A DNA stretch of 64,000 nucleotides from Nocardioides sp. SYSU D00038. Lineage in GTDB: Bacteria; Actinomycetota; Actinomycetes; Propionibacteriales; Nocardioidaceae. Shown here piece after piece: positions 2,216 through 5,157 of the stretch (positions are counted from its first letter, which is position 1; each line of letters starts with the position of its first letter). The notes below the pieces were generated by a model. That model did no database searches. It was not told the origin of the DNA and worked only from the letters and a program-made list of their open reading frames with translations. Location of the stretch: positions 62,001-126,000 of the forward strand of contig NZ_JAFFJT010000024.1 in the NCBI RefSeq assembly GCF_016924665.1, written 5' to 3'. A program made the translations under genes and the position numbers.

Positions 2216-2259
2216 GCCCCGGTGCTACCGTGACCGGCACCGAGCCGATCGGGGGTCCG

Positions 2260-3501
2260 ATGCCACGCGACGAGCTGCACAGCCGCCGGGTCGAGGCGAT
2301 GCGCGCCTGGACCACCTTCGTCGAGGCCGGCGACGTGCCGGCCCCGCGGGTGCGGCCCGAGATCCTGCACAGCTGGGCGCGCTCCGGCGCCGCGGTGCCC
2401 ACCGACGTCGGCGAGGCCCCGCTGGCCGACGAGTCCGAGACCGCCGCCATCTGGCAGGACTCCGCGCTCCAGGTCGCGGTCGAGAACGTCGAGGCCGAGC
2501 TGCGCCGCACCGCCGAGGACGGCGACCTCGTCGTCGCCGTCACCGACGCCGAGACCCGGATCCTGTGGACCTACGGCGGCCGGGTGATGCGTCGCAAGGC
2601 CGAGACGGTCAACTTCGTGCCCGGTGGCCGCTGGGACGACCAGTCGGTCGGCACCAACGCCCTCGACCTCGCCAACCGGCTCGGCCAGCCCTCGATGGTC
2701 TTCAGCGCCGAGCACTACGCGCCGATCGTGCACAACTGGGTGTGCTGGGCCGCGCCGGTGCACGACCCCGTGACCGGCGCCCAGCTCGGCGTGCTCGACC
2801 TCTCCACGACCTGGGACCGCACCCACCCGATCGGGCTGGCCACCGCCCGGGTGATGGCCCGGCTGATCGAGCAGGCGATGCCGCGCAGCCACCACCACCC
2901 CTCCGCCGGCCCCGACGTCACCGGTGACCCCGGCCTGGTGATGTCGCTGCTCGGCACCGCCGAGACCCGGTTCGACGGGCAGCGGCTGCTGCTCAACCGC
3001 CGCCAGACCGAGGTGCTCGCCCTGCTCGCGCTCCACCCCGAGGGACTCTCGCTGGAGCAGCTGCACGCGATGGTCTACGGCGACCAGGCGGTCACGTTCT
3101 CCACGCTCAAGGCCGAGGTCAGCCACCTGCGGCACGCGCTCGGCGGCCAGCTCGCCTCGCGCCCCTACCGGCTGCTGATGCCGGTGGAGACCGACGTCGA
3201 GCACGTCCTCGGGCTGCTCCGCCGCGGCCAGGTGGGCCCGGCGGTCGAGGCCTACGGCGGCGACCTGCTGCCCGGCACGAACTCGCCCGCGCTCACCGAG
3301 CTGGCCGAGTACGTCGCGGTGGCGGTCCGCGAGGCGCTGCTGGCCGATCCGCAGCCCGACGCGGTGCTGCGCTACAGCGACCTGGCGCCCTACGACACCG
3401 AGGTCGTGGAGGCCTGCCTGGCCGCCCTCGGCACCATCGGCGGTCGCCCGCACCCCGCGGTCCCGTTGCTCAAGGGCCGGTTGGCCGCGGCGCGCGACTG
3501 A
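2260..3501 (+). CDS. GAF-domain transcriptional regulator with C-terminal winged helix
   Basis: The protein has 413 residues from the ATG at 2260, which has GGGGG six bases upstream; an in-frame GTG at 2230 would add ten residues. The first ~220 residues resemble the sensor half of AcoR-type activators, with the conserved DQSVGTNAL and VHNWVCWAAPVHDP stretches of a GAF domain. The AAA+ sigma-54 domain and Fis helix are absent. Instead residues from about 230 (LNRRQTEVLALLALHPEGLS, TLKAEVSHLRHAL) look like an OmpR/SARP-type winged helix. It probably senses a small organic molecule and controls nearby catabolic genes. The target is not shown by sequence. A CRP-like palindrome sits in its promoter. 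Confidence 0.8.
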   Translation: MPRDELHSRRVEAMRAWTTFVEAGDVPAPRVRPEILHSWARSGAAVPTDVGEAPLADESETAAIWQDSALQVAVENVEAELRRTAEDGDLVVAVTDAETRILWTYGGRVMRRKAETVNFVPGGRWDDQSVGTNALDLANRLGQPSMVFSAEHYAPIVHNWVCWAAPVHDPVTGAQLGVLDLSTTWDRTHPIGLATARVMARLIEQAMPRSHHHPSAGPDVTGDPGLVMSLLGTAETRFDGQRLLLNRRQTEVLALLALHPEGLSLEQLHAMVYGDQAVTFSTLKAEVSHLRHALGGQLASRPYRLLMPVETDVEHVLGLLRRGQVGPAVEAYGGDLLPGTNSPALTELAEYVAVAVREALLADPQPDAVLRYSDLAPYDTEVVEACLAALGTIGGRPHPAVPLLKGRLAAARD

Positions 3502-3510
3502 CGGAATAGA

Positions 3511-3536
3511 TCCGCACGTCCGTACGTTCGTGCGGA
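3511..3536. promoter_or_regulatory. Operator palindrome of the ArsR-type regulator
   Basis: TCCGCACG at 3511-3518 and CGTGCGGA at 3529-3536 form a perfect 8-bp inverted repeat around a 10-base centre, ending one base before the regulator's ATG. This size and placement is typical of ArsR/SmtB autoregulatory operators. An A/T-rich GAATAGAT directly upstream may contain the -10. Confidence 0.7.
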
Positions 3537-3537
3537 C

Positions 3538-3915
3538 ATGATCCGGCGACCGACCCATCCCCACCCGGTCTCGGGAGCCGCCGTCGAGCGGGTCCGCACC
3601 GACGGGCTCGGGGCCGACGACGCCGGCCGGCTCGCCGAGCTGATCGCACTCCTCGCCGACCCGGTGCGGCTACGGGTGCTGTTCGCGCTCGTCGCGGTCG
3701 ACGAGCTCTGCGTCGGCGACGTCGCGCTCGCCCTCGGCATCACCGACGACCAGTCGTCGTACGCCCTGCGCCAGCTGCGCGCGGCCCGCCTGGTCGCGAC
3801 CCGGCGCGCCGGCCGCGTCGTCCACTACCGCCTCGCCGACGGCTTCCCGCACGCGCTCCTCGAGCACTGCCTGCGCGAGCTGCTCGCCATCGCCACCCGG
3901 AAGGACCCCGCATGA
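3538..3915 (+). CDS. ArsR/SmtB-family metalloregulator
   Basis: This 125-residue winged-helix repressor matches the usual family size (about 100-130). The core runs from LADPVRLRVLFALV through the alpha3 segment ELCVGDVALALG to the recognition helix DQSSYALRQLRAARLV and the wing RRAGRVVHYRLAD. In ELCVGD one of the two cysteines of the classical ELCVCD metal site is Gly. A C-terminal HALLEHC stretch offers alpha5 ligands, so a CmtR/NmtR-like or alpha5 site is possible. It is coupled by ATGA to a His-rich DUF4396 membrane protein and preceded by a palindromic operator, which suggests a metal-induced two-gene operon. Confidence 0.85.
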   Translation: MIRRPTHPHPVSGAAVERVRTDGLGADDAGRLAELIALLADPVRLRVLFALVAVDELCVGDVALALGITDDQSSYALRQLRAARLVATRRAGRVVHYRLADGFPHALLEHCLRELLAIATRKDPA

Positions 3916-4568
3916 CCGCCCACCAGCACACCCACGACCACCAGGTGCCGCACGACGCGCACGGCAGTCACGACGGGCTGACCGCGATGGCGGTCAGTGC
4001 CACCCTCCACTGCCTCACCGGCTGCGCCATCGGCGAGGTGCTCGGCATGCTGATCGGCACCGCGGCCGGCCTCGCCACCGGGTGGACCATCGCGCTCTCG
4101 GTGAGCCTGGCCTTCCTCCTCGGCTACGCGCTCTCGACCCTGCCGCTGCTGCGGGCCGGGCTCGCGGTGCCCACCGCGCTGGGCGTCGTCCTGGCTGCCG
4201 ACACGCTCTCGATCCTGACCATGGAGGTCGTCGACAACGCGGTGATGGCGCTGGTGCCGGGCGCGATGGACGCCGGCCTGGTCAACCCGACGTTCTGGTG
4301 GGCGATGGCGCTCGCCCTCGCGGTGGCGTTCGTCGCGGCCGTGCCGGTCAACCGCCTGCTCCTGCAGCGCGGTCGCGGTCACGCCCTCACCCACGCCCAC
4401 CCCGGGACGGCGGCCCCCGAGGGCTGGCGGCGCCGGGTCCCCGACCTGTCCACGCCGGCCCTGGTCGCCGCGGTCGCGGCCTTCCTGCTCGGCGGCCTGG
4501 TCGTCTCCGCGGCGGCCGAGGACGACGCTGCGGCCGGCGGGCACGCCGCCGCCGTGACGAACCGGTAG
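3912..4568 (+). CDS. DUF4396 integral membrane protein with His-rich N-terminus
   Basis: The 218-residue protein starts at the ATG overlapping the arsR-type stop. The first 22 residues hold eight His and several Asp ([17 protein letters not shown]), a likely metal-binding tail. DUF4396 hallmarks follow: [16 protein letters not shown] and membrane helices with [23 protein letters not shown] separated into two segments. A second His cluster (HALTHAHPG) and a last helix near the C-terminus follow. Function of the family is not established. The coupling to an ArsR regulator makes metal export or tolerance a reasonable inference. Five or six transmembrane segments are estimated by eye. Confidence 0.8.
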
Positions 4569-4610
4569 CGGCCGGCCCGGCGACCAACCACCCGCCAACC
4601 CGCCCGCTCC

Positions 4611-4641
4611 TAGGTTGCCTGAGACGCAGGTCACACCTGCG
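4611..4641 (+). promoter_or_regulatory. Probable cox operon promoter and operator
   Basis: TAGGTT at 4611-4616 is a plausible -10 hexamer. Just downstream, CGCAGGT (4625-4631) and ACCTGCG (4635-4641) form a perfect 7-bp inverted repeat with a 3-base centre, at about the transcription start. A repressor bound here would block initiation of coxSLMG. The regulator is unknown; the GAF protein at 2260 is a candidate only by proximity. Confidence 0.45.
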
Positions 4642-4668
4642 ACGACGGACGACTCCAGGGAGCGGCGC

Positions 4669-5153
<485 letters not shown>

Positions 5154-5157
<4 letters not shown>

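Follow-up and report, generated by a model that had tools for sequence, protein, structure and literature searches.

Within the window, the whole 64,000-nucleotide stretch of Nocardioides DNA analysed here, an ArsR/SmtB-type regulator gene and a gene for a DUF4396 membrane protein were found as a pair behind a candidate operator. The pair is probably a metal-responsive two-gene module, with copper as its most likely metal. That it forms an autoregulated operon is very probable, a role in metal tolerance is likely, and copper is a fairly good choice for the main metal. Taken as a whole, the reading we favour on balance is that a metal-tolerance module of two genes, most likely directed at copper, was inserted at this place. 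In relatives, both families lie near copper-type genes, for HMA more often than by chance, and a fusion of a P-type ATPase with DUF4396 is the strongest single clue.

The regulator gene (3538..3915, forward strand, 125 aa) was identified from its open reading frame, family models and alignment to solved structures, and the DUF4396 gene (PF14342; 3912..4568, forward strand, 218 aa, five predicted long helices) from its open reading frame, Pfam and a predicted model. The ArsR stop codon overlaps the DUF4396 ATG as ATGA. Because the ArsR ATG follows the end of the operator by one base, the transcript of the pair may be leaderless. No promoter or terminator was detected in a scan of 3380-4760 with the sigma-70 consensus, which fits GC-rich actinobacteria poorly. 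A first-pass annotation of this DNA had named a palindromic operator (3511-3536), an ArsR-type repressor, a DUF4396 gene and their ATGA coupling, all of which were confirmed by sequence and family models. The upstream neighbour was a regulator gene (2230-3501; DhaR-like by a match far below the model cut-off), with an XdhC gene also upstream of the pair, and the downstream neighbour was a 2Fe-2S subunit gene (4669-5157). Neither a copper ATPase or chaperone gene nor a DUF305 gene adjoined the pair in the window. Two HMA matches were present in the window genome, both on contig C30 and one of them within a 791-residue open frame.

The candidate operator is a 26-bp imperfect inverted repeat (3511..3536), recognized by dyad geometry and by conservation in relatives. 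Its arms, TCCGCACG (3511-3518) and CGTGCGGA (3529-3536), are perfect over 8 bp each and lie 10 bp apart, and 11 of the 13 pairs of the 26-bp dyad are symmetric. Read as a 12-2-12 imperfect inverted repeat, the form given for operators of SmtB/ArsR repressors in the accessible part of PMC8790569, it matched at 10 of 12 arm positions. Since 308 of 3000 120-bp stretches drawn at random from the window (about 1 in 10) held an equally good dyad, the palindrome by itself says little; palindrome strength was rejected as the sole measure of the operator, and conservation was used instead.

Relatives of the regulator were collected from 341 Nocardioidaceae genomes, of which 33 gave 38 matches at E ≤ 1e-15. 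Of the 37 matches that lie outside the window, 35 were fetched with their surroundings (those left out were in G294 and a third copy in G256), and genes were called with a simple custom caller, not a standard program. The resulting 32-row set lost L119, L135 and L140, where ArsR was not called, and L138, where another gene was taken; L091, L106, L109 and L111 stood outside the ArsR alignment, and removal of near-identical copies reduced the 32 rows to 27 distinct loci.

An 18-bp operator core, TCCGTACGTTCGTGCGGA (3519..3536), was delimited by its conservation in these relatives and its exact match to the pattern TCCGYRCNNNNGYRCGGA (consensus TCCGTRC...GTRCGGA). With at most one mismatch, the pattern occurred at 12 sites within 200 bp upstream of homologous regulators, in 10 of the 27 distinct Nocardioidaceae loci (a count that takes in the window; their upstream DNA totals 5.4 kb), against 5 sites in the remaining 332 kb of these loci; this contrast is strong but not fully independent, because the pattern was picked by eye from the same upstream regions that were later counted. 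Three of the five sites elsewhere precede a DUF326 gene (L116), a row of genes led by DUF326 (L131) and a permease-like gene before ArsR (L114), and the other two are in the window, with no called gene starting in the 250 bp downstream of either. Counting against a conserved operator, 17 of the 27 loci had no close core match upstream, and in seven of these (L118, L120, L121, L122, L125, L127 and L136) a core with two mismatches was found there. The exact copy of TCCGYRCNNNNGYRCGGA at 3519-3536 is the only one in the 4.34-Mb genome, which means little since about 1.6 copies per genome (0.00007 per 200 bp) are expected by chance from base frequencies; its position before ArsR and its recurrence in relatives carry the argument. 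A regulon search of the whole genome with up to two mismatches gave no signal (423 matches per strand vs 358 for a reversed control pattern). The extra half-site upstream of the core (3511-3518) makes a doubled arrangement that was also seen in L145 and L113; L112, which is as close as these two, had no doubled half-site.

The regulator scored above cut-off with the ArsR/SmtB metalloregulator model NF033788 (67.7 bits, cut-off 55) and with PF01022 (23.7 bits, cut-off 22), and its closest solved protein was SmtB (1r1t; E 1.4e-17 over residues 24-114). Its ELCVGD motif had been described in the first-pass annotation as lacking one Cys of the usual site, so that its metal might differ. The single Cys was indeed seen, but it is not odd and does not carry that inference, since SmtB (1r1t, 1smt) carries the identical ELCVGD; for the same reason, a damaged CadC-type site was rejected. 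The 12-2-12 inverted-repeat operator is a further likeness to SmtB. The accessible part of PMC8790569 defines the alpha3N site as two Cys in helix 3 plus an N-terminal Cys, and the alpha5 site as DxHx10Hx2E. By the definitions given there, both were absent from the window ArsR: it has one Cys in the motif and none before it in the 125-residue ORF, and DGF replaces DxH, while the two remaining alpha5 positions are Glu and Ala. This absence bars the label of an alpha3N or alpha5 sensor, not membership of the ArsR/SmtB family. Unlike SmtB, the window ArsR has conserved H7xH9, D61 and H110-C111 in place of the alpha5 pattern, and its operator core and its target, DUF4396, differ as well, the target of SmtB being metallothionein.

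In the 32-row ArsR alignment, which includes the window and in which five rows repeat others, C58 and D61 were kept in 32/32 rows, H110 and C111 in 27/32, and H7 and H9 in 24/32. Five outlier rows lack the His-Cys pair, and four of them have a Cys pair in helix 3. We infer from these residues that HxH, C58/D61 and H110-C111 may make up one sensing site, and likewise which metal it might bind. Judging by titles that PMC8790569 cites, BxmR is an SmtB/ArsR repressor that responds to Cu(I)/Ag(I) and to Zn/Cd, and the window ArsR would resemble it in sensing Cu(I) if the copper reading is right. Compared by description only, and from part of the source, BxmR has alpha3N and alpha5 sites, whereas the window ArsR has neither.

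Pfam searches of the 114 genes flanking the ArsR subfamily in 32 regions (four of these genes adjoin the wrong gene, in L138) found DUF305 17 times, DUF326 12 times and Oxidored_q4 9 times, followed by YHS, HMBD and E1-E2 ATPase (6 each) and cation efflux (5); ArsP_1 permease (3), multicopper oxidase (2), DUF4396 (2) and ZnuA (1) were rarer. The counts are inflated because near-identical copies of loci were included. In L131, genes for DUF326, DUF4396, ArsR and DUF305 were consecutive. DUF326 proteins are presumably copper-binding four-helix bundles, and mycobacterial Rv2963 is a protein that we take to be of the ArsP_1 kind. In the parts of the sources available, CopM, a DUF305 protein, is described as copper-binding and copper-induced (PMC4335983), and the putative permease Rv2963 as controlled by the copper repressor RicR (PMC10961391).

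Other genes were also seen beside the ArsR subfamily. A NuoA-like gene (PF00507, Oxidored_q4) adjoined it at L122:4878-5219 and also in L097, L098, L099, L105 and L107, often together with another gene that, judged by eye, resembled NuoB. Genome G256 held three equal-scoring ArsR matches, in L132 (1508900-1521200), in L133 (2444000-2456300) and on contig C2; DUF305 and ATPase-type neighbours were shared by L132 and L133, which suggests recent duplication or mobility of these copies. Mutator-type transposases made up 3 of the 114 flanking genes.

The DUF4396 protein matched PF14342 over residues 26-155 (140.3 bits, cut-off 27). Its predicted model (mean pLDDT 83.8, pTM 0.71) contained five long helices (16-51, 56-81, 86-114, 126-152 and 181-216), of which the Pfam domain spans only the first four. 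In an alignment of 74 DUF4396 sequences, which excludes L012, L013, L017, L030, L052, L058 and L081, the invariant residues were H33, C34, C38, E42, D97, M104, E105, D108, N109, W129, N147, H157 and H161; H33, C34 and C38 form an HCxxGC-type motif in helix 1, and D97, M104, E105, D108 and N109 lie in helix 3. The N-terminal tail (3912..3977, forward strand) is rich in His as the first-pass annotation had stated, although with 7 His in 22 residues by count, not eight. Such a tail is not peculiar to this gene: at least four His precede the core in 43 of the 74 aligned homologues. The loop 153-180, the only one rich in Lys/Arg, would be cytosolic by the positive-inside rule, and the His-rich N-terminus would likewise lie inside. 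The C-terminus of CopA-type ATPases is cytosolic; a cytosolic DUF4396 N-terminus agrees with the fusion described below, where the ATPase C-terminus is joined to it. Foldseek found no match of the model to solved folds at E ≤ 0.001, and the best VIA-align result (Z 6.5, 124 residues, 3.7 A) was in a range common by chance among helical proteins. ABCG5, from a profile search against solved structures (E ~0.11), was taken as noise. As no solved fold matches convincingly, transport is proposed from context and residues, and direct transport by DUF4396 is somewhat doubtful.

DUF4396 was present in 205 of the 341 Nocardioidaceae genomes, with one copy in the window genome, and also in other bacteria and haloarchaea. 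An ArsR of the window type adjoined it in four of these 205 genomes, namely that of the window, G252 (L002/L083/L145), G244 (L091/L119) and G218 (L104/L131), and lay within 6 kb of it in one further genome (G018, L118). The ArsR-subfamily profile gave an adjacent match in 4 of 79 scored DUF4396 loci from named genomes (80 minus L013, where no DUF4396 was called): L002, L006, where the match is a DtxR-type repressor, L018, which carries ArsR-type HTH models, and L036. The first-pass annotation had held that a metal link would be refuted by a lack of metal induction, or if DUF4396 genes rarely had a metalloregulator beside them. Such rarity was found for this ArsR (4/79 and 4/205), but the metal link survives through other neighbours and the fusion. 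Its metal role for DUF4396, given without a particular metal, gains support from HMA, CopA-type ATPase, DUF305 and DUF326 neighbours together with the fusion, and these indicate copper.

HMA was the commonest domain (8) among 150 genes flanking DUF4396, a count that leaves out two genes of L081 and skips genes below 60 residues; DUF305 and MFS (7 each), DUF4142 (6), Oxidored_molyb (5) and E1-E2 ATPase (3) followed. Four seeds (CopA, CopZ, DUF305 and the CopA-adjoining protein of L008) were compared with the DNA up to about 5 kb on each side, and one or more of them matched in 22 of 80 loci; the 58 loci without any of these copper-type seeds count against the copper reading. An HMA domain lay within 5 kb of DUF4396 in 5 of 33 genomes vs 0.14 for random positions (at most 3 in 5000 trials); the 28 genomes without one within that distance again count against copper. 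These 33 genomes were hand-chosen among the matches listed, nearly all single-contig and with one DUF4396 place each; the window genome, in which HMA and DUF4396 are on different contigs, stood outside them. The L008 protein, unassigned and with a repeated His motif (L008:5789-6619; also the C-terminal part of L017:2667-6497), is encoded between the CopZ and CopA genes in L008; 8 of 80 loci had a protein of this type near DUF4396, and Pfam gave it a match below cut-off only.

The fusion was found in L017, where a 1276-residue frame comprises HMA, E1-E2 ATPase, hydrolase and DUF4396 and then a stretch resembling the L008 protein; the ATPase-DUF4396 order is repeated in L058, which comes from a different Thermoleophilaceae MAG. 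Both fusions carry PF14342 as the window protein does (127.2 and 126.5 bits). DUF4396 is covalently joined to P-type ATPase domains in L017 (with HMA) and L058, whereas in the window it stands alone.

Plasmids gave a similar context. There were 27 plasmid records with a DUF4396 match, and among the 10 whose neighbourhoods were inspected, copper-type neighbours were annotated in four: pKRAD01, a Streptomyces liliifuscus plasmid, pFRL5 (DUF305) and NBC_01175. In NBC_01175, DUF305 was near DUF4396, which was followed by a product named four-helix bundle copper-binding protein. The pKRAD01 row held DUF305, a metal-sensitive regulator, an HMA protein, a P-type ATPase and DUF4396. In Halorussus, a permease and an HMA protein were within 6 kb of DUF4396. 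An Ensifer plasmid record was unannotated at DUF4396, and four of the 10 inspected plasmids had no copper-type neighbours. Actinobacterial copper islands such as pKRAD01 thus share the DUF4396 gene with the window; unlike pKRAD01, the window pair has its own ArsR and no adjoining ATPase, chaperone or DUF305 gene.

For the window pair, the following mechanism is proposed. An ArsR dimer bound to the operator, where its own transcript starts, would repress both genes. A metal present in excess in the cytosol, most likely Cu(I), would bind a non-classical site composed of the HxH arm at the N-terminus, C58/D61 near helix 3 and the helix-5 pair H110-C111, and would thereby free ArsR from the operator, so that DUF4396 could be made. 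As a membrane protein of four to five helices with a cytosolic His-rich tail, conserved residues in helix 1 and helix 3, and H157/H161, DUF4396 might take cytosolic metal and pass it into or across the membrane. It would act either as an exporter or together with a CopA-type ATPase as its transfer partner; such an ATPase is probably encoded at another place in the genome, as HMA on contig C30 suggests. A bolder form of the proposal, which we consider doubtful, is that DUF4396 represents a new type of copper carrier in the membrane, working with CopA-type ATPases or alone under an SmtB-clade repressor that would sense Cu(I) through an undescribed HxH, Cys/Asp and His-Cys site. In the accessible parts of the literature searched, a scope outside which most subscription journals lay, DUF4396 came up in a single paper, which names it in passing next to a metal-resistance cluster, and no description of an ArsR-DUF4396-type module was found among the top-ranked papers listed; PF14342 was not mentioned in the literature searched. 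With its two genes and a defined operator, the module opens the function of DUF4396 to a simple experiment. If this regulator subfamily does sense metal without either classical site, the view of how SmtB-type proteins read metals would be widened.

The same operon logic could serve zinc, cadmium or another divalent ion, in which case DUF4396, with its His-rich tail, would export or buffer metals in general. SmtB as the closest solved relative, the cation efflux (5) and ZnuA (1) genes among the 114 ArsR-subfamily neighbours, and the DtxR-type repressor adjoining DUF4396 in L006 are consistent with this, but the alpha5 ligands of zinc-sensing SmtB, as defined in the accessible part of PMC8790569, are absent, and copper-type neighbours and CopA-type fusions outnumber zinc ones; we regard such a metal as unlikely here. 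Two conserved Cys, the lack of both classical metal sites and a weak similarity to BigR (40.1 bits, cut-off 155) might instead point to a sensor of a thiol, persulfide or oxidant acting through C58/C111, with DUF4396 in redox or membrane homeostasis. A non-metal signal is nevertheless very unlikely, given the NF033788 metalloregulator match above cut-off, the conserved HxH and Asp that accompany the Cys, and neighbours that are metal genes, P-type ATPases included. The DtxR-type repressor gene of L006 (L006:5759-6541; PF02742, PF01325) comes immediately after DUF4396 and is itself followed by one for a small membrane protein that, judged by eye, resembled a manganese exporter.

A further explanation would make the pair an accessory of the surrounding molybdenum-hydroxylase cluster, serving cofactor insertion. 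The pair is on the same strand between the regulator (2230-3501) and the 2Fe-2S gene (4669-5157), and no terminator-like site was found between those genes. The upstream regulator had a match at E ≤ 1e-40 in 274 of the 341 family genomes, some clearly distant, and the 11 closest relatives (L188-L198) were inspected. In five of them (L188, L190, L192, L196 and L197) the regulator stood directly before the 2Fe-2S gene with a gap of 86-246 bp and without the pair; in the window this gap is 1167 bp and holds ArsR-DUF4396. Other genes were at the junction in L191, L194 and L195, while L189, L193 and L198 do not show it. In addition, the pair was found in other contexts in L145, L119/L091 and L131. 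Since relatives have the junction without the pair, its membership of the molybdenum-hydroxylase operon is disfavoured, and a part in cofactor insertion is most improbable. We favour insertion of the pair at a site that varies between relatives, with loss from the other genomes as the alternative. At L191:550-1436, the junction was occupied by two opposite-strand genes, the second of which resembled a ZIP metal transporter by eye.
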